From Candidatus Accumulibacter necessarius (GTDB lineage Bacteria > Pseudomonadota > Gammaproteobacteria > Burkholderiales > Rhodocyclaceae): 39,799 nucleotides of DNA. Position numbers and translations under genes: made by a program. Position 1 is the stretch's first letter. The number at the start of each line of letters is the position of its first letter. This document shows, in pieces, positions 2,718 through 11,032 of the stretch. The notes under the pieces are model-generated. The model saw nothing but the letters and a program-made list of their open reading frames with translations. It did not search any database and was not told where the DNA came from. The stretch lies in assembly GCA_017302435.1 (NCBI GenBank), contig JAFLDL010000042.1, positions 1 through 39,799 of the forward strand, written 5' to 3'.

Positions 2718-3698
2718 TCACGACCAGTTCATCCAGGCGAGGACAGTCGCCAGGATCGCGGGCTGGAGGTGGGCTGCAGCGATCGTCATCGGCAGCGCGG
2801 ACCGAAGCCGGGCCGGCTCGTGGGCATGGGCGGAGAGAATCCGGCCAGCCTTGATGGCGGGCAGCAGGGCCAGCAGGGAAGCCAGGGCGAGAGGCGGCAG
2901 CTGACGCGAGCCGACCAGGCCGACGATGGCCAGCGCTGACAGGAGCAGCAGCAGCCAATAGCCTCGTGCGGCCACGGCCGGCTCGAGACGAGCCACCCAA
3001 TGCCGCTTACCGGCCAGAATATCGGCCGCCCGGTCGGGAAACTGATTGATATAAAGGATATTAGTGACCAGCAGAGCATAGGGCAGGCCGAGCAGCCAAG
3101 GCCGGGGAGAGATCGCGCCACGCTGCACGAAATCGGCACCGGCAACGATCAGCAGGAAGCCAGCTGCGACGCATGGCTCGCCCAGGCCTCGGCTGCACAA
3201 CTTCAGCGGCGGCGCGGAATAGGCCCAGCCAATCAGCAACCCGGCCAGTCCGATCCCGAACAGGCTGCCCCCCCGGGTGGCAATCAGCCACAGCCCACCG
3301 GCGATCACCCCGCTGAACAGGACCAGGGCATAGGCCAGCATCCGGCGCGGCGACATCACACCGTTCTGGATGAAGCGGGAGCCGCCGGTGAAAGGGAACA
3401 GGCGGTCCACATTGACGGCATCGCTACCGTTGAGGTGATCACAGTAGTCGTTGAGGACATTGACGCCGGCCTGGGTGGCCACGGCCAGGAACCCGGTCAA
3501 CAAGGCGAGAGTCCATGAGAAGGCGGCATCCAGGGCGCTGCTAAAGCCCAGCAGGCACCCCGCCAGGGCGATGCTCAGGAAAGCCGGCCGGGTGGCCAGC
3601 AGATAGCGCCGCAACGGGCTGGCCAGGGCTTCCAGCGTCGGTTCCAGGCGTGGGGCGGCGACCTTGCTCATACGGTTGTCGCGCGCTGACGCCGCCAT
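2718..3698 (-). CDS. UbiA-family prenyltransferase, MenA-like
   Basis: This is a polytopic integral membrane protein of up to 326 residues with eight or so hydrophobic segments. Two Asp-rich prenyl-diphosphate motifs are visible: NDYCD at residues 83-87, and DRAAD at 222-226 followed by AGKRH, the arrangement seen in MenA-type 1,4-dihydroxy-2-naphthoate prenyltransferases. The expected activity is transfer of a polyprenyl chain to an aromatic acceptor at the inner membrane; the acceptor cannot be read from the sequence. It lies 151 bases downstream of hyfI on the same strand, so it could be cotranscribed with the membrane complex, though the gap is large compared with the overlaps in that operon. 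No good Shine-Dalgarno precedes the ATG at 3698 or the alternative ATG at 3671. An AAGGAG lies further upstream, facing an in-frame ATA codon at 3722. Confidence 0.8.
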   Translation of the reverse strand: MAASARDNRMSKVAAPRLEPTLEALASPLRRYLLATRPAFLSIALAGCLLGFSSALDAAFSWTLALLTGFLAVATQAGVNVLNDYCDHLNGSDAVNVDRLFPFTGGSRFIQNGVMSPRRMLAYALVLFSGVIAGGLWLIATRGGSLFGIGLAGLLIGWAYSAPPLKLCSRGLGEPCVAAGFLLIVAGADFVQRGAISPRPWLLGLPYALLVTNILYINQFPDRAADILAGKRHWVARLEPAVAARGYWLLLLLSALAIVGLVGSRQLPPLALASLLALLPAIKAGRILSAHAHEPARLRSALPMTIAAAHLQPAILATVLAWMNWS

Positions 3699-3849: not shown

Positions 3850-4374
3850 TCACCCCGGGGCCGCCCGACACCGTCTCACCGCCGTCAGAATCCCGCGCAG
3901 GATATCGATCGGCGCCGGCGGACAACCGGCGACCGTGACATCAACCGGAATGACGTTGGCTACGCGACCGCAGCTCGCGTAGCCCTCGCCGAAGATGCCG
4001 CCGCTACAGCCGCAGTCGCCGACCGCAACCACCAGCTTCGGTTCGGGCGTCGCGTCATGGGTCCGCCGCAGAGCCAGCGCCATGTTGCGCGAGACCGGCC
4101 CGGTGACCAGCAGCAGGTCGGCGTGGCGCGGGCTGGCAACGAACCGGATGCCGAGGCCCTCGATATTGTAGTAGGGATTGTTGAGCGCGTTGATCTCGAG
4201 TTCGCAGCCATTGCACGAGCCGGCGTCGACCTGGCGAACGGCCAGCGCCTGGCCGAGAATGGTGAGCAATTCGTCATGGATGCGCCCGGCTTCAACACGC
4301 GGAGCATCGCTGCATTCGGGCGGCGGTTCGCTGCAGAGGCCCTGGCGTGTAATCTGTCGGAGAATGCGCCACAT
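3850..4374 (-). CDS. hyfI: Hydrogenase-4-type small subunit (HyfI/HycG, NuoB-like Fe-S protein)
   Basis: This 174-residue protein is the electron-transfer small subunit related to complex I NuoB and to HycG/HyfI. Four Fe-S ligand cysteines are in place: C54 and C57 (GSCNGCELE), C121 (VGDCGCSGG) and C151 (AGCPPAP). The proximal/N2-type [4Fe-4S] cluster should therefore be assembled. It has no membrane segment and should sit on the cytoplasmic face against HyfG. The ATG at 4374 is chosen because its A is also the last base of the hyfG stop codon (TGATG), implying translational coupling; a longer in-frame extension runs into hyfG and is not protein-like. It is the last gene of the operon. No HyfH/HycF-type polyferredoxin gene is seen beside it. 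Confidence 0.9.
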   Translation of the reverse strand: MWRILRQITRQGLCSEPPPECSDAPRVEAGRIHDELLTILGQALAVRQVDAGSCNGCELEINALNNPYYNIEGLGIRFVASPRHADLLLVTGPVSRNMALALRRTHDATPEPKLVVAVGDCGCSGGIFGEGYASCGRVANVIPVDVTVAGCPPAPIDILRGILTAVRRCRAAPG

Positions 4375-5936
4375 CAGAGGTCGTGTCCTGCATAGCTGAG
4401 GTTGAAGGACTTGTTGATCAGCGGAAAGTCCGGGACGATGTTGCCGATCACCGCGTGCTCGAGTACCGGCCAGTTCTGCCACGAGGGATCGTGAACGTGG
4501 CAGCGGCGGATGGCGTTGGCGCCGCCCTCGCCGTCCCAAAGCAGCGCCACGAAGACTTCACCGCGCCAGCCCTCGACCCAGCCGGCGCCGAACGCCGCCT
4601 TCGCCGGCAGCCGCAATGCGCTGCGCGTCTCACCCTCACCGAGCTGCAAAAGCAGCAGGCGCAGCAGGCGCAGGGACTCCTCGATTTCGTCGAAACGGAC
4701 TGCCACCCGCGCAGCGACGTCGCCATTGCCTTGCGTCGACATCTTCACCGCCAGTCGGTCATAGGGTGGCCAGGGCTGATCGCAGCGCAGATCGGCGGCC
4801 CGGCCACTGGCGCGACCGGCAAGGCCGGTCAGACCGAGGCGAGCAGCCAGCTCCGGCGGCACGCGACCGGTGGTCATGAAGCGATCCTGCAGGCCGGCAT
4901 GCTCGTCATAGACCTGGCGCAACGCCTGCACCTCGCGCTCGATCAGGTCGCACTGGCGCGCCAGCCGGTCGCTGGTCGCCTGGTCGATGTCCATGGCCAC
5001 GCCGCCGGGAACGATACAGTCCATCATCAGGCGGTGGCCAAAAGCTTCCCTGGCCAGCCGCAGCCAGTCTTCCCTGAGGCGGGAGAACTGGGCAAGGCCG
5101 AAGGCGAAAGCGGCATCGTTGCCGAGCGCGCCGAGGTCGCCAAGATGGTTGGCGACGCGCTCACGTTCCAGCAGCAGGGCGCGCAGCGAAGCGGCGCGCT
5201 CGGAAACCCGGCAGCCGGCCAGCGACTCGAGCGCCATGCACCAGGCCCAGGCGTATGCCACCGTCGAGTCCCCCGAGACCCGCCCGGCCAGACGATACGC
5301 TTCGAGCGGTGGCAGTTCGGTGAAGCGCTGTTCGATCCCCTTGTGCTTGTAGCCCAGGCGTTGCTCCAGACGCAGCACCTTCTCGCCGACGACCGAAAAG
5401 CGGAAATGCCCAGGCTCGATAATCCCCGCGTGCACTGGTCCAACCGGAATTTCGTGGACACCGTCACCTTCGACCCGAACGAAGGCGTAATCGCTGACTT
5501 CTCTCGCCACCTCGGAATTTTTTTCCAGCGCCCCGTGGCGCAAGGGAAAGCAGCCCGCTGGCCAGGCTCCGTGATTGAGCCACGGCCTTTGGTCAGCGGC
5601 GCCGTCAGCCGTCACCCCCAGCAGATCGGCAGCGGCCCGCTGCATGCGCGCCGCGCAGGGAAAGATTGGCGCCAGATCCGGGTAGCTTGAACGCCTCTCG
5701 CCGAGCGGCAGGTCGAGCCAGAGCAGACCTTCGCGAACGACATACGCTGATGAGACGACCAGACTGCCGGCCGCGCCGCGCGTGCAGTCGGACGCCCACA
5801 GCGCCAGCAGGCGCCCGCCCTGCTCGGACACGCCGCGTGCCAGCACCCGCCAGGTTTCGGCGCGGACCGTCGCGCGCCAGATCGGCAGCGGAGCCGGCAA
5901 TCGTTCACAGTCCAGGCTGAAGCCGGCAATCCGCAT
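4374..5936 (-). CDS. hyfG: Hydrogenase-4-like large subunit (NuoC-NuoD fusion) lacking the Ni-binding cysteines
   Basis: This 520-residue protein fuses a 30-kDa NuoC-like domain (about 1-150) to a 49-kDa NuoD/large-subunit domain (about 160-520), as in HycE and HyfG. In active [NiFe] enzymes the nickel is held by a CxxC near the middle and a DPCxxC at the C terminus. Here the first position reads RVSGDSTVAYA (SGDS, residues 221-224) and the second reads SFNLSYAG (512-517), so all four cysteines are Ser or Gly. No further tail follows the second motif, and no maturation protease gene is nearby. The protein therefore resembles the Ehr class, intermediate between group 4 hydrogenases and complex I; its electron donor and acceptor are unknown. 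The ATG at 5936 is chosen because GGAGG lies 8 bases upstream. An in-frame TTG at 5951 would overlap hyfF. Confidence 0.9.
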   Translation of the reverse strand: MRIAGFSLDCERLPAPLPIWRATVRAETWRVLARGVSEQGGRLLALWASDCTRGAAGSLVVSSAYVVREGLLWLDLPLGERRSSYPDLAPIFPCAARMQRAAADLLGVTADGAADQRPWLNHGAWPAGCFPLRHGALEKNSEVAREVSDYAFVRVEGDGVHEIPVGPVHAGIIEPGHFRFSVVGEKVLRLEQRLGYKHKGIEQRFTELPPLEAYRLAGRVSGDSTVAYAWAWCMALESLAGCRVSERAASLRALLLERERVANHLGDLGALGNDAAFAFGLAQFSRLREDWLRLAREAFGHRLMMDCIVPGGVAMDIDQATSDRLARQCDLIEREVQALRQVYDEHAGLQDRFMTTGRVPPELAARLGLTGLAGRASGRAADLRCDQPWPPYDRLAVKMSTQGNGDVAARVAVRFDEIEESLRLLRLLLLQLGEGETRSALRLPAKAAFGAGWVEGWRGEVFVALLWDGEGGANAIRRCHVHDPSWQNWPVLEHAVIGNIVPDFPLINKSFNLSYAGHDL

Positions 5937-5940
5937 CGAC

Positions 5941-7395
5941 TCAACCTCCAATCATCTGCGCCGCCTGGCGATACCAGGCGTCGAGGTAAGGCGGAATGTA
6001 CAGGCCCAGCATCAGGCCAAGACCGAGGTGGGCAAAGACCGGGACCAGCGCTGGAGGGTGGCGCAACGGCTTGACCGAGGTGTCGCCGAAGACCATCGGC
6101 TGCACGCGGCTGAAGACCGAGGCGAAAGCAACGCCCAGCGCCAGCAGCAGGAAGGGTGTGGCCCATGGCTGCTCGCGCATGGCGGTCGTGAGAATCAGGA
6201 ATTCACTCGCGAAAACCCCGAAAGGTGGCATGCCAAGGATGGCCAGTGAGCCGAGCATCAGACCCCAGCCGACCGTCGGGCTGACCTTGATCAGGCCGCG
6301 GATGTCGGCCATGTTCTGCGTCCCGGCCTTCTGCGTCGCATGGCCGACGGCAAAGAAGATACCCGACTTGATCAGCGAATGGACCGTCATGTGCAAGAGG
6401 CCGGCATAGTTGGCAATCGGGCCGCCCATGCCGAAGGCGAAGGTGATCAGCCCCATGTGTTCAATCGACGAATAGGCGAACATGCGCTTGACGTCCTTCT
6501 GCCGCGACAGGAAGAACGCTGCCACGACCACCGACAGCAGCCCGAAAGCCATCATCAAGTGTCCGGCGAGATGACTCTGCAGCGCGCCATCGGTCAGCAC
6601 CTTGCAACGCAACAGGGCATAGACGGCGACGTTGAGCAACAAGCCCGAAAGCACTGCCGAAACCGGCGTCGGGCCTTCGGCATGGGCATCTGGCAACCAG
6701 TTGTGCATCGGCACTAGGCCGACCTTGGTGCCATAACCGATGAACAGGAAGGCAAAAGCCAGGGTGATGATGGTCGGATCAAGCCGAGCCTTGACCGCGT
6801 CGAGATTGGTCCAGAGCAGGGCGCCGCCCTCGAGGCCGATCACTTTTTCCGCTGCCATGTAGAGCAGCACGGTACCGAACAGCGCCTGCGCGATGCCGAC
6901 GCCGCAGAGAATGAAGTATTTCCACGCGGCCTCGAGGCTCGCCGGGGTCCGGTAGACGCTGACCAGCAGGACGGTGGTCAGCGTCGCTGCTTCCATGGCG
7001 ACCCACAGGATGCCCAGGTTGTTGGTCGTCAACGCGATCAGCATGGTGAAGCTGAACAACTGATACATGCTGTGGTAGAGGCGCATGCGATTAGGCGTCA
7101 TCTTGCCATGGTCACGCTCAACGCGCATGTAGGGCCGCGAGAAGATCGCCGTGGTGAGACCGACGAAGGCGGTCAGGGTGACCAGGAACACGTTCAGGGG
7201 ATCAATGTAGAACTCGCGCGACCAAGCGAACAGTGGCCCGTCGGAGATCACCCCGACGGTCAGCACGCAGGTGGCGACGAAGGTCCCCAGGCTGAAGGCG
7301 ACGTTGACCTCGCGCGCGCTGTCGCGGTGCCCGGTCAGGGCCAGAACCACGCTGCCGAGCAAGGGAATGCCGAGGACGAAAAACAGGGTTTCCAG
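5941..7395 (-). CDS. hyfF: Hydrogenase-4 component F-like antiporter subunit (NuoL/M/N family)
   Basis: This polytopic membrane protein of about 484 residues belongs to the Mrp/NuoN-type proton-pumping family. Hallmarks are YGTKVGLVPMHNWLPDAH, followed by PTPVSAVLSG, the lysine-bearing HSLIKSG, and AYSSIEHMG. These line the half-channels through which protons or Na+ move. The start is unusual: the only in-frame ATG (7476) would overlap hyfE by 80 bases and add a non-hydrophobic tail. A CTG at 7395 has AAGGAAG at 7402-7408 upstream, lies one base after the hyfE stop, and leads straight into the first membrane helix (ETLFFVLGIPLLG). The same one-base spacing separates hyfC and hyfE. CTG initiation is an inference. 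Confidence 0.88.
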   Translation of the reverse strand: METLFFVLGIPLLGSVVLALTGHRDSAREVNVAFSLGTFVATCVLTVGVISDGPLFAWSREFYIDPLNVFLVTLTAFVGLTTAIFSRPYMRVERDHGKMTPNRMRLYHSMYQLFSFTMLIALTTNNLGILWVAMEAATLTTVLLVSVYRTPASLEAAWKYFILCGVGIAQALFGTVLLYMAAEKVIGLEGGALLWTNLDAVKARLDPTIITLAFAFLFIGYGTKVGLVPMHNWLPDAHAEGPTPVSAVLSGLLLNVAVYALLRCKVLTDGALQSHLAGHLMMAFGLLSVVVAAFFLSRQKDVKRMFAYSSIEHMGLITFAFGMGGPIANYAGLLHMTVHSLIKSGIFFAVGHATQKAGTQNMADIRGLIKVSPTVGWGLMLGSLAILGMPPFGVFASEFLILTTAMREQPWATPFLLLALGVAFASVFSRVQPMVFGDTSVKPLRHPPALVPVFAHLGLGLMLGLYIPPYLDAWYRQAAQMIGG

Positions 7396-7396
7396 T

Positions 7397-8056
7397 TCAG
7401 TCTTCCTTGAGCTTTTCGAGGTGGCTGATGTCGAGGCTGTCGAACTCTTCCCGAATATGGAACATGAACACGCCAAGAATCAGGATGCCGACCAGCACGT
7501 CGAGGGCAATACCCAGTTCGACGACCATCGGCATGCCGTAGGTCGCCGAGGTGGCGGCAAAGAACAGGCCGTTTTCCATCGACAGGAAGCCGATCACCTG
7601 CGGCACCGCCTTTGAGCGCGTAATCATCATCATGAACGAGAGCAGAACGCAGGCCAGCGCAATGCCCAGCGTGCCTCGGGCAACGCTGACCGAGAGCTTG
7701 GAGATCGGGAGCGCCAGGTTGAAGGCGAAGATGACCAGGGCGATGCCAATGACCATGGTCATCGGGATGTTGATCAGGGTCTCGACGTCCCAGCGTACGT
7801 CGAGACGATTGATGACCCGATAGAGCAGCAGCGGGATCAGGATCACCTTCAAGGCCAGCGTGATGCCCGCCGAAACGTAGAGGTGTGGCTGGTGCGTGGC
7901 GTAGCCGACCAGCACCGTCGCCGCGACCAGGGTTATTCCCTGGGCGGTAAACAGGTGAATCAGGGACAGAATCCGCCGCTGCGAAATCATCGCGAACGAT
8001 AGCATCAGCAGGATTGCCGCAAAGAGATTGATCAACTGGCCGACGAGTTCGGTCAT
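7397..8056 (-). CDS. hyfE: Hydrogenase-4 component E-like membrane subunit
   Basis: This 219-residue hydrophobic protein has about six to seven predicted membrane helices and is close to E. coli HyfE (216 residues) in length. HyfE has a NuoK-like region and helps form the proton-translocating membrane arm. It has few charged residues inside helices; LSMENGLFFAA near the middle carries the membrane-embedded Glu expected of the NuoK-like part. The ATG at 8056 (MTELVGQL) lies one base after the hyfC stop. The longer in-frame start at 8083 would overlap hyfC by 26 bases and adds a polar tail. No strong Shine-Dalgarno is seen, so coupling to hyfC translation is likely. The C terminus ends LEKLKED, cytoplasmic and charged. 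Confidence 0.88.
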   Translation of the reverse strand: MTELVGQLINLFAAILLMLSFAMISQRRILSLIHLFTAQGITLVAATVLVGYATHQPHLYVSAGITLALKVILIPLLLYRVINRLDVRWDVETLINIPMTMVIGIALVIFAFNLALPISKLSVSVARGTLGIALACVLLSFMMMITRSKAVPQVIGFLSMENGLFFAATSATYGMPMVVELGIALDVLVGILILGVFMFHIREEFDSLDISHLEKLKED

Positions 8057-8057
8057 C

Positions 8058-9005
8058 TCATGCGGCCAGGAGAATGTGGACAAGCATGCCGATGACCGCC
8101 AGCAGAAAGGCGGTGGCCAGGTATTCCGGCACGCGAAAGATGCGCATCTTGGCGCTCAGGGTCTCGAGCAGTGCGAGCATAGCGCCACCGATTGCCAGCT
8201 TGAGGATCAGCGCCGGCATCGCCAGCAGTAGCGCCAGCGGCGCCTCGGCCTCGGCAACGCCCCAGGGGAAAAACAAGGCCAGGCCGATGCACGAATAGGC
8301 GAAGAGCTTCAGGCTGGCTGCCCACTCGAGCAAGGCCAGGTGCCGACCCGAATACTCAAGGATCAGCGCCTCGTGAATCATGGTCAGTTCAAGGTGGGTC
8401 GCCGGGTTATCCACCGGCACACGCGCGTTTTCGGCCAGCGAGACCATGGTGAAGGCGACACCGGCCAGTGCCAGGCTGGGATGGATTCCCAGGTCGCGAT
8501 GCGCCAGCGTCTCGACGATGGTGGTCAGCGAGGTCGACTTGGAGATGAGCGACGCCGAGAACAGCACCATCAGCAGCGCCGGTTCGGCGAGAAAGCCGAT
8601 GAGCATCTCCCGTCGGGCACCAAGCGTGCCGAAAGAGGTACCGACATCCATCGCTGCCAGCGAGATGAACACCCGCGCCAGGGCAAACAGGCCGACCAGG
8701 GCAATCGCGTCGGCCGCCGGCGACAGCGGCAGGTCGGTCGACAGGGTCGGAATGATCGCGCTCGCCAGCGCCATGCAGCCAAAAACGATGTAAGGCGCCC
8801 CGCGGAACAGCGGTGACGCGTGCTCGGCAATCACGGATTCCTTGTTGAACAGCTTGTGCAGCATCCGATACGGCTGCAAGAGTCCGGGCGCCGACCTATT
8901 CTGCAGCCAGGCGCGCCACTGATTGATCCAGCCGCTGAGCAGCGGCGCCAGCAGCAGCGCCGCGACAATTTCCAGCAGTTGCGAAAAGACGCCCAGCCAG
9001 GTCAT
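8058..9005 (-). CDS. hyfC: Hydrogenase-4 component C-like subunit (NuoH family)
   Basis: This 315-residue integral membrane protein of the NuoH/HycD/HyfC family anchors the peripheral Fe-S/large-subunit module to the membrane arm. Diagnostic stretches are PGLLQPYRMLHKLFNKE near the N terminus and ARVPVDNPATHLELTMIHEA followed by LEYSGRHLALLEWA in the C-terminal half, the usual conserved acidic loop facing the interface. Its ATG overlaps the hyfB stop by four bases (ATGA at 9002-9005), a standard coupling arrangement. The family call is clear; in this operon the partner large subunit lacks nickel ligands, so the role is structural and proton-coupling rather than in hydrogen evolution. Confidence 0.92.
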   Translation of the reverse strand: MTWLGVFSQLLEIVAALLLAPLLSGWINQWRAWLQNRSAPGLLQPYRMLHKLFNKESVIAEHASPLFRGAPYIVFGCMALASAIIPTLSTDLPLSPAADAIALVGLFALARVFISLAAMDVGTSFGTLGARREMLIGFLAEPALLMVLFSASLISKSTSLTTIVETLAHRDLGIHPSLALAGVAFTMVSLAENARVPVDNPATHLELTMIHEALILEYSGRHLALLEWAASLKLFAYSCIGLALFFPWGVAEAEAPLALLLAMPALILKLAIGGAMLALLETLSAKMRIFRVPEYLATAFLLAVIGMLVHILLAA

Positions 9006-11032
9006 TGTTTCACCACCACCAGCACGGCAATCAAGGTCGCGAAGCTGTAGAGCAGGTAGACCGCGATCCGCCCCTGCTGCAACAGGCCGATGGCGCTGGC
9101 CAGGCGCTCGACGGCGCGAGCCAGCGGCAGATAGAGCCAGTGCCAGAAGTGATCCCCAACACTGACGCGATAGCGGGGCTCGGTGTCGAACGGCGTCGGC
9201 AGTTCACGTTCCATGCGAAAGAAGGGCTCGAAAATCTGCCGGATCGGCTGCCCGAAGCCCTCGGCAGTATCCTGCATGCGGGCGTTCTGCCACGGGTAGC
9301 CGCAGTCCCAGGGCGCTGCGCGTCGCAACCGGCCGTGGTAGAGGGTGCGCACGAGGACAAAGGCAAGCGCGAAACTGGCCGCAACGCCGAGCAGGAAGAT
9401 CGCTGGCCCGTAACTCGCGCGCTCGATCGCGACCGGCACCAGCAGCCAGCCACCGGCAGCGACCGTATCGGCCATCCCGGCACCGATCAGTGACCGCGTC
9501 ACCGGATCGATCAGCGCAATGAACTGCACCGGAAACAGGCCGAGCAGCACGCAACCGCAGACCAGCCAGGCCATGCCGATCCGTTCCCAGCCGCTGGCGT
9601 CACGCGCCAGGGCAAGCTTCTCTTCGCGCGGCTGGCCGAGGAAGATGATCCCGAAGAACTTGACCATGGTATAGCCGGCGAGCGCGGCGATCAGCGCAAT
9701 CAGCGCCGCCACCACCGGGATCAACATGTTGAGGAAGGCGCTCGGCAAGGCTGGAGAGAAAAGAAAGCTCTGCAGCAACAGCCACTCCGAGACGAAGCCC
9801 GCCAGTGGGGGCAAGCCGGCGCTGGCCAGAACGCCGACCAGCATGGCCCAGGCCACCCAGGGCATGGTGCGGATCAGGCCGCCCAGCTTGCCAAGGTTGC
9901 GCTCGCCGGTGGCATGCAGGACCGCGCCCGTGCCAACGAAAAGCAGGCTCTTGAAGAAGGCATGACCCGCCACATGGTAGAGCACCGCGGTCAGCGCCAG
10001 TGCCGCCATCGGCTGCATGCCGTAGGCGGAGAACAACACCGCCAGACCAATGGCGGCGAACAGCAGACCAATGTTCTCGATCGAAGAATAGGCCAGCAGG
10101 CGCTTCATATCGACCTGCACGGCGGCGAAGACGACACCGAACAGTGCGGTGGCCAGGCCAACCACCAGCAGCAACAGGCCCCACCACCAGAGCGGGGTAT
10201 CGAGCAGATCGAAGAAGACCCGCAACACACCGTAGATGGCGGTCTTCAGCATCACCCCGCTCATCAGCGCCGAGACCGGCGAGGGGGCGGCCGGATGCGC
10301 CTCGGGAAGCCAGACATGCAGCGGCAGGATGCCGGCCTTGGCGCCAAAGCCGACCAGCGCCAGCAGGAAGGCCAGCGACGCCCAGAACGGTGAGAGCTGC
10401 TGTGCGCGCATGTTGGCGAAGGTGTAGTCGCCGGTATTGGCCTGCAGGACGCCGAAGCAGAGCAGAATGCTGATCGCGCCGATGTGCGCGATCAGCAGGT
10501 AAAGGTAGCCGGCACGCTGGATTTCGACGATGCGATGGTTGGCAGTGACGAGAAAGAACGAGGACAGCGCCATCGTCTCCCACATCACCATGAACGCGTA
10601 GGCGTCGTCAGCCACCACCACGAGCGCCATGCTGGCGAGAAAGAGGTGGTATTCGAAGGCGAGCAGACCCGGCGGCGTGCCTTCACCCTTGCGAAAATAG
10701 CCGGCGGCGAACGCGGACACACCGGCCGAGACACTGCCGATGACGATCAGAAAGAAAGCCGACAGGCTGTCGAGGCGAAAATGAAAGGGCAAGCCGGGTA
10801 GTCCGATCGGAAGTACCGCGACCTCGGGCGAACTCAACGCCGCACTCAGGGCAATCCCCGCCAGGGCCAGCCCGAACGCGCCACCGAGGGGAAACAGCAC
10901 CCTCGCCACCAGCGTCAGCCGGCGCAAGGCAAGAACGCCGGCCACGCCAATCAGCAGCCAGGCGCCAACCACCAGCAGAACCCAGTCAATCTGTAGCCAC
11001 TGCGCCGCAGCGGGCAGCCAGCGGGTGATCAC
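9002..11032 (-). CDS. hyfB: Hydrogenase-4 component B-like antiporter subunit (NuoL family)
   Basis: With the GTG start at 11032 the protein has 676 residues, almost the E. coli HyfB length (672). Antiporter motifs are present: FGAKAGILPLHVWLPEAHP, SPVSALMSG, AYSSIENIG, and the HVAGHAFFKSLLF segment with its channel lysine. The C-terminal extension includes WDCGYPWQNARMQ and a long amphipathic stretch, as in HycC/HyfB. It is the first large gene of the operon. The GTG overlaps the stop of a short upstream ORF in a GTGA tetranucleotide, which is why it is chosen over the in-frame TTG at 11107 that has no ribosome site. The membrane arm thus has two antiporter-like subunits (B and F); no HyfD homologue is seen. 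Confidence 0.9.
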   Translation of the reverse strand: MITRWLPAAAQWLQIDWVLLVVGAWLLIGVAGVLALRRLTLVARVLFPLGGAFGLALAGIALSAALSSPEVAVLPIGLPGLPFHFRLDSLSAFFLIVIGSVSAGVSAFAAGYFRKGEGTPPGLLAFEYHLFLASMALVVVADDAYAFMVMWETMALSSFFLVTANHRIVEIQRAGYLYLLIAHIGAISILLCFGVLQANTGDYTFANMRAQQLSPFWASLAFLLALVGFGAKAGILPLHVWLPEAHPAAPSPVSALMSGVMLKTAIYGVLRVFFDLLDTPLWWWGLLLLVVGLATALFGVVFAAVQVDMKRLLAYSSIENIGLLFAAIGLAVLFSAYGMQPMAALALTAVLYHVAGHAFFKSLLFVGTGAVLHATGERNLGKLGGLIRTMPWVAWAMLVGVLASAGLPPLAGFVSEWLLLQSFLFSPALPSAFLNMLIPVVAALIALIAALAGYTMVKFFGIIFLGQPREEKLALARDASGWERIGMAWLVCGCVLLGLFPVQFIALIDPVTRSLIGAGMADTVAAGGWLLVPVAIERASYGPAIFLLGVAASFALAFVLVRTLYHGRLRRAAPWDCGYPWQNARMQDTAEGFGQPIRQIFEPFFRMERELPTPFDTEPRYRVSVGDHFWHWLYLPLARAVERLASAIGLLQQGRIAVYLLYSFATLIAVLVVVKQ

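Follow-up and report, generated by a model that had tools for sequence, protein, structure and literature searches.

A hyfBCEFGI operon of Candidatus Accumulibacter necessarius that fits the Ehr complexes rather than hydrogenase 4

The closest described systems to the operon considered here are the energy-converting-hydrogenase-related (Ehr) complexes, reported without CxxC motifs from Nitrospira, ammonia-oxidising archaea and Sulfobacillus (PMC10284858; PMC10432482; PMC4378227), and a six-gene operon noted in 2010 in Cupriavidus metallidurans CH34 and C. eutrophus H16, for which a lithotrophic role was considered very unlikely (PMC2864759). Such operons have been called a non-hydrogenase in Acidithiobacillus ferrooxidans (PMC7735108) and a group 4 hydrogenase in Acidithiobacillus caldus and Nitrospira (PMC3826726; PMC5596200). 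A pairing of Ehr with formate dehydrogenase has been proposed (PMC6349859; PMC7894505; PMC3826726), and according to a 2025 paper the function is still unknown and expression did not rise with H2 (PMC12342949). In the portions of the open-licence literature from which these papers are cited, we recognised none that gives Ehr a reaction. Ion pumping has been retained without nickel in the MBS sulfane sulfur reductase of Pyrococcus furiosus, a relative of a group 4 hydrogenase in which two of the four cysteines remain and the cluster motif is shortened to three ligands (PMC7684303). Here we describe a hyfBCEFGI operon at positions 3850-11032, on the minus strand, of a 39,799-nucleotide stretch of the wastewater bacterium Candidatus Accumulibacter necessarius (contig JAFLDL010000042.1, assembly GCA_017302435.1); the whole stretch is referred to as the window, and the source genome (4.56 Mb, 88 contigs) is listed as 100% complete. 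The operon comprises six genes, named by their Pfam and NCBIfam matches, the scores of HyfB and HyfF being those of hydrogenase-4 models:

9002..11032, minus strand: HyfB-like antiporter subunit (NuoL type), starting at GTG 11032 or TTG 11107; NCBIfam NF005086, 928.9 bits
8058..9005, minus strand: HyfC-like subunit (NuoH type); Pfam NADHdh, 124.6 bits
7397..8056, minus strand: HyfE-like membrane subunit; NF008556, 91.8 bits, below its cut-off of 136; no Pfam match
5941..7395, minus strand: HyfF-like antiporter subunit; NF005045, 911.6 bits; probable CTG start 7395
4374..5936, minus strand: HyfG-like large subunit (NuoC plus NuoD type), 520 amino acids from ATG 5936; Complex1_49kDa, 126.8 bits, and Complex1_30kDa, 31.1
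3850..4374, minus strand: HyfI-like small subunit with one predicted [4Fe-4S] site (C54, C57, C121, C151); Oxidored_q6, 104.3

The features that set this operon apart from hydrogenase 4 lie in HyfG, where both nickel-binding motifs are replaced (residues are counted from ATG 5936; an alternative TTG lies five codons upstream):

5265..5276, minus strand: SGDS (residues 221-224), replacing the first nickel motif CGIC (translation, phmmer, MAFFT)
4386..4403, minus strand: NLSYAG (residues 512-517), replacing DPCYSC, with N512 for the canopy Asp and S514 and G517 for the two cysteines (translation, MAFFT)

Phmmer pairs RVSGDS and SFNLSY of HyfG with RVCGIC and SLDPCY of the E. coli (Escherichia coli) HycE, and MAFFT sets HycE C241, C244, C531 and C534 against S221, S224, S514 and G517. 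Group 4 [NiFe] hydrogenases are recognised by two nickel-binding CxxC motifs, and HyfG has a cysteine at none of the four positions; the reading frame is open and aligned. The same lack is broadly seen in the family: in 38 rows the number of cysteines at these four positions never exceeds one, and in the three rows with a single cysteine it is the first or the second position that has it. The first-pass annotation, made from the sequence of the window, had reported these replacements and warned that a hydrogenase 4 label would mislead, and both points are borne out; that the operon is not hydrogenase 4 is supported. Cysteines at the nickel positions in a corrected frame, which the annotation had set as a ground for rejection, are not seen. 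Two further signs carry less weight. The C-terminus of HyfG aligns to HycE R537, which we take to be the cut site of the maturation protease, and the processed tail is therefore not encoded. This is not decisive for hydrogenase status, because L088a, a relative that keeps its nickel motifs, also lacks the tail. The same annotation had found no protease or hyp gene in the window, and E. coli HypA-E, HycH and HycI indeed give zero tblastn matches there (E 1e-3; HypF was not among the queries). As evidence this absence is weak, since the source genome has HypD on contig C33 and further [NiFe] large-subunit matches on contigs C16, C22, C33 and C56, all outside the window.

The six open reading frames overlap or almost touch, and the ratio of non-synonymous to synonymous substitution rates (dN/dS) against five same-genus loci is 0.05-0.20 in every one; a further comparison, of HyfB with locus L179, lies outside these five and was left out (wrong fragment, 32% identity). 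All six genes are under purifying selection, and the earlier description of them as intact and tightly coupled holds. HyfF has no ATG, GTG or TTG near its true start; a CTG at 7393-7395 follows directly on the HyfE stop, and two sister-species loci (L161, L164) have TTG in its place, which makes CTG 7395 probably the start.

In HyfI, cysteines C54, C57 and C121 are present in 105 of 105 rows and C151 in 104, the remaining row being a gap, which extends across the family what had been noted of the window alone. The motif C54-N-G-C57 has the hydrogenase CxxC spacing and not adjacent cysteines; with its four ligands it also differs from the shortened motif of MBS. The antiporter-like subunits are equally constant, with HyfF E162, K251, K330, H340, H366, K370 and E425 (105 rows) and HyfB E152, K232, K310, H357, K361 and E416 (104 rows) conserved at 98% or more. 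In the HyfG pocket, I173 occupies the position of the quinone-ligand His of NuoD, and G222 that of a NuoD Tyr which is presumably also a quinone ligand. The proton path of hydrogenase is largely retained, with H264, E417 and R458 in all 38 family rows and R375 as Arg in 36 and Lys in two, together with one loop residue:

5415..5417, minus strand: E174, counterpart of HycE Glu193 in the beta1-beta2 loop; Glu in 38 of 38 family rows

These pocket residues were mapped through the paper on the formate hydrogenlyase (FHL) structure, according to which the canopy Asp appears strictly conserved (PMC9474812). At that position (N512) the family has Asn in 36 of 38 rows, Asp in one and Ser in one. Judged by its residues, the HyfG pocket is hydrogenase-like and not complex-I-like.

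A search of solved structures with the HyfG sequence returned HycE (7z0s) at 191.8 bits, then Mbh at 107.4 and NuoD-type proteins at 96.2 or less. An AlphaFold2 model of HyfG (predicted local distance difference test, pLDDT, 81.1; predicted template modelling score, pTM, 0.86) was matched by Foldseek best to HycE 7z0s (E 6.6e-29, TM 0.81) and then to E. coli NuoCD. From the fold prediction one learns of a HycE-like shell, and nothing further.

The operon resembles several known systems to different degrees. It fits a new member, in another species, of a known kind, the Ehr or hyfBCEFGI complexes: the large subunit lacks CxxC motifs, and antiporter-like, NuoH-like, large and small subunits are present, in agreement with the class first suggested for it. 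Of the published Ehr loci only the CH34 region was compared by sequence; the megaplasmid of that strain has a six-gene stretch that agrees in content and order and shows 66-83% identity with the genes of the window, and the HyfG encoded there has the same SGDS and NLSYAG. That record is itself unannotated, and we infer that this stretch is the published hyfBCEFGI locus. The best named relative of HyfG is from an Accumulibacter metagenome-assembled genome (MAG; 79% identity), with same-genus genomes spanning 77-82%. The E. coli hydrogenase 4 and FHL systems (Hyf, Hyc) share the proton-path residues and supply the best solved match, whereas the window operon lacks their nickel ligands, the tail past HycE R537, HyfA, HyfH, HyfJ and a separate HyfD; the E. 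coli hyf operon includes hyfA, hyfD, hyfH and hyfJ besides the six genes found here. Complex I has homologous modules (NuoB/NuoCD/NuoH/NuoL/M), but the window operon lacks its quinone-ligand His and Tyr and its adjacent NuoB-type cysteines, and no NuoE/F/G/I-type gene was seen in the operon.

The missing HyfH deserves particular attention. No match to a HycF/HyfH-like ferredoxin subunit was found in the window, nor within the matched operon in any of 122 family loci (queries E. coli HycF, HyfH, HyfA and HycB and the HycF-like piece of L088a); the positive controls, hyc, hyf and the L088a operon, were all found. Two loci (L072, L088) have such a match in their second, different operon, and in L104 a HyfA-like match lies about 4 kb off on the opposite strand. 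As encoded, the complex of this family is thus predicted to carry one Fe-S cluster. Two other types of large subunit without nickel-site cysteines (no-Cys types) were met in genomes of relatives, in operons of other gene order, one ending SFGLxxAGxDR (L142, L143 (first), L144, L145, L147, L148) and one ending SFGLSxAExDR with variation (L143 (second), L146, L149-L151).

The family is far from confined to the source genome. HyfG matches occur in 62 of 369 genomes of the class at E<=1e-20, 44 of them at E<1e-90 (hereafter carriers), and the large subunit of 42 carriers ends in a C-terminus without the cysteines; in the other two (G315, G066) the C-terminus falls outside the piece read, which for G066 ends at a contig end. 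The G315 copy (L300) has an in-frame TAG in the large subunit, possibly a broken copy or an assembly error. At genus level the operon is present in 11 of 25 genomes, some of them incomplete, including the source genome, and is an accessory trait that comes and goes. A scan of genome contigs confirmed at least 582 relatives, the best 80 of which were kept for study. The signature NKSxN..Y ends 46 of 49 large-subunit rows (of the remaining three, one is a true HycE type, one is truncated and one belongs to another no-Cys type), and the full B-C-E-F-G-I order was recovered by tblastn at 61 of 81 loci, the other 20 being short of at least one gene, many at contig ends. Members span Pseudomonadota, Nitrospirota and a Rhodococcus plasmid, and plasmid-borne copies also occur in Azospirillum, Methylocalor, Paraburkholderia, Bradyrhizobium and Burkholderia. 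By this distribution the no-Cys hyf family is old and selected and the cysteine loss old, and a recent loss in this genome alone, which the first-pass annotation had named as grounds for rejecting its own reading, is not what is seen. A HypD match is absent from 24 of 44 carriers, and from 19 of the 37 with completeness of at least 95%; in those genomes the usual route to the NiFe cofactor is not available to the complex, and dependence on Hyp maturation, another mark of group 4 [NiFe] enzymes, does not hold. HypD is found in 20 of 44 carriers versus 123 of 325 other genomes (p 0.33; this and the following p values are uncorrected for kinship and number of tests).

The large-subunit tree (66 rows, 344 columns, motif columns excluded, NuoD root; L072a was left out for its long branch of 2.44) branches from NuoD to Mbh, then to HycE/HyfG-type nickel enzymes (84/43) and then to all no-Cys rows together with L088a (clade 100/100). 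Nickel rows are thinly sampled in it (Mbh, HycE/HyfG types and L152 only), and the clade takes in the Nitrospirota rows, the tree itself having no records named Ehr. Since nickel-containing Mbh and HycE/HyfG stand between NuoD and this clade, the Ehr group seems to be an offshoot of nickel-containing group 4 and not a step towards complex I. The earlier proposal of an evolutionary intermediate between group 4 hydrogenases and complex I therefore finds no backing in the tree, nor in HyfG, which lacks the quinone ligands of NuoD.

L088a, the nickel-type large subunit of a groundwater betaproteobacterial MAG, keeps RICGVC and LCYSC with all four cysteines, and its operon has a HycF/HyfH-like subunit and a no-Cys operon next door. 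It shares with the family the loop IPVGPxHAGIIEPGHFRF and the NKSF signature, whereas the window operon lacks its two motifs and its HycF/HyfH-like subunit. The Nitrospirota rows (RISGVS and NKSFNLSYSG) have Ser, Ser, Ser and Gly at the nickel positions of L088a. The best tree puts L088a within the Ehr clade (91/83), a placement that requires two losses or one regain; a position outside all no-Cys rows, with a single loss, is not rejected (approximately unbiased test, p-AU 0.138). With L088a as query, 70 of 349 genomes of the phylum match at E<=1e-40, and the 30 loci returned comprise three true HycE types and 27 without a nickel motif. In Nitrospirota 64 of 87 genomes match at the same threshold, and none of the 29 new loci returned from these 64 has a nickel motif. 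No second L088a-like nickel protein was found among the loci that were read from the matches. Tandem hyf operons were also observed elsewhere: L088 and L247, from the groundwater betaproteobacterial MAG, pair a nickel-type operon with HycF/HyfH-like subunit and NKSF with a no-Cys one, and L068, L072, L286 and L287 (Burkholderiales; Nitrospirota) pair two differing no-Cys operons. In the accessible parts of the open-licence literature we have not met a family without HyfH, the change of canopy Asp to Asn, the lack of complex-I quinone ligands or an L088a-like protein with four cysteines and HyfH.

What this complex does is best read as nickel-free, redox-driven ion pumping, because the HyfI cluster cysteines and the antiporter Lys and Glu residues are near-invariant. 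We put about even confidence in an Ehr-type complex of this kind, a hydrogenase-derived membrane oxidoreductase that would couple electron transfer to pumping. The place formerly held by HyfH would be where a soluble carrier of low potential docks directly, ferredoxin or flavodoxin being the likeliest; because the operon stands alone in hosts unrelated to one another and also on plasmids, a carrier in general use is more probable than a dedicated partner. Electrons would pass from this carrier to the single HyfI cluster and on to a small acceptor that takes two electrons in what was the NiFe pocket, and that need not bind as in complex I. Protons may arrive by the retained hydrogenase path (E174, R458, H264, E417, R375), and the reaction would power the movement of H+ or Na+ by HyfC and the pair of antiporter-like subunits. 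Several points weigh against this. N512 in place of the canopy Asp could mean altered or lost site chemistry, and pLDDT is below 50 at HyfG residues 143-199 and 515-520, which belong to the site, leaving the pocket outside the reliable model. The search for the ferredoxin subunit covered flanks, so it could be encoded elsewhere in the genome, and eight of ten loci of the other no-Cys types (L142-L145, L147, L148, L150, L151) keep a HycF-like piece; cysteine loss alone therefore did not make HyfH dispensable, and the two losses were separate steps. In single cases, CO dehydrogenase adjoins the operon in Candidatus Nitrospira nitrosa (PMC5596200), and carbonic anhydrase and formate dehydrogenase do so in A. 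caldus (PMC3826726).

An electron acceptor of the complex I kind, with quinone bound in the former NiFe pocket of a ferredoxin:quinone oxidoreductase, has a precedent in that the NiFe pocket became the quinone pocket of complex I (PMC9474812). We consider this unlikely given I173 and G222 at the NuoD ligand positions, Asn for the canopy Asp and the hydrogenase spacing of the HyfI cysteines. Operation in reverse, with an ion gradient pushing electrons uphill from quinol or another donor to reduced ferredoxin, would suit carriers in need of low-potential electrons, which include Gallionella, Thiobacillus and Thiomonas, genera known as chemolithotrophs, as well as Nitrospirota. It is doubtful all the same, as RuBisCO (E<1e-30) is equally common in carriers and others (23/44 versus 153/325, p 0.53) and the operon also sits on plasmids of Rhodococcus, Bradyrhizobium and Burkholderia.

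The published idea of a formate dehydrogenase partner gains some support from Fdh-alpha matches above the curated cut-off, which are commoner in carriers (19/44 versus 75/325, p 0.009). Yet 25 of 44 carriers, including the source genome, have no match above it (three candidates per genome scored), the difference vanishes at E<=1e-100 (29/44 versus 195/325, p 0.51), where the source genome again has no match, and no neighbour is conserved, which together make the partnership quite improbable. That HyfG and HyfI are only a scaffold for an ion antiporter or similar non-redox device would account for the loss of catalytic metal ligands, ferredoxin subunit and canopy Asp alike; the constancy of the HyfI cluster cysteines makes it very unlikely. 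A real hydrogenase with recent cysteine loss, or a decaying operon, is refuted by conservation across Pseudomonadota, Nitrospirota and a Rhodococcus plasmid and by the low dN/dS, and is barely conceivable; nothing in the source genome speaks for it, and among carriers only G315 has an in-frame stop.

The surroundings of the operon, with neighbouring open reading frames scored on codon usage, hold no recurrent gene. Nine of 81 loci and three of 52 are the upper limits for any protein cluster other than those of the operon itself, and the commonest (9/81) looks by eye like methionyl-tRNA synthetase. A UbiA-type prenyltransferase at positions 2718-3698 of the window is MenA-like and scores under every listed curated NCBIfam cut-off. 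It had been singled out in the first pass as a possible conserved neighbour and was rejected as a partner, standing beside the operon at one of 81 loci, the window itself, and at none of five same-genus loci.

In annotation and in a number of genome papers the operon goes under the names hydrogenase 4, group 4 hydrogenase or formate hydrogenlyase. It is widespread and under selection, yet open-licence papers, so far as their accessible parts go, describe its function as unknown. Tentatively, and with less than even confidence, we suggest that the NiFe site was lost at least twice in the complex I superfamily, once towards complex I and separately in Ehr, and that Ehr would represent a different way of driving the ion pump. 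The present family may be its leanest form, which would make do with one Fe-S cluster, have neither a ferredoxin subunit nor a quinone site of the complex I kind, carry a canopy residue that has been neutralised and bind a new substrate where nickel once sat, and L088a may be a living nickel-containing relative near that step. If Ehr is indeed a side branch whose nickel loss was independent of that of complex I, it would offer a second experiment of nature on what the pump requires of its redox site. The occurrence of the operon without Hyp proteins, together with its minimal six-gene set, makes it testable in ordinary laboratory strains.

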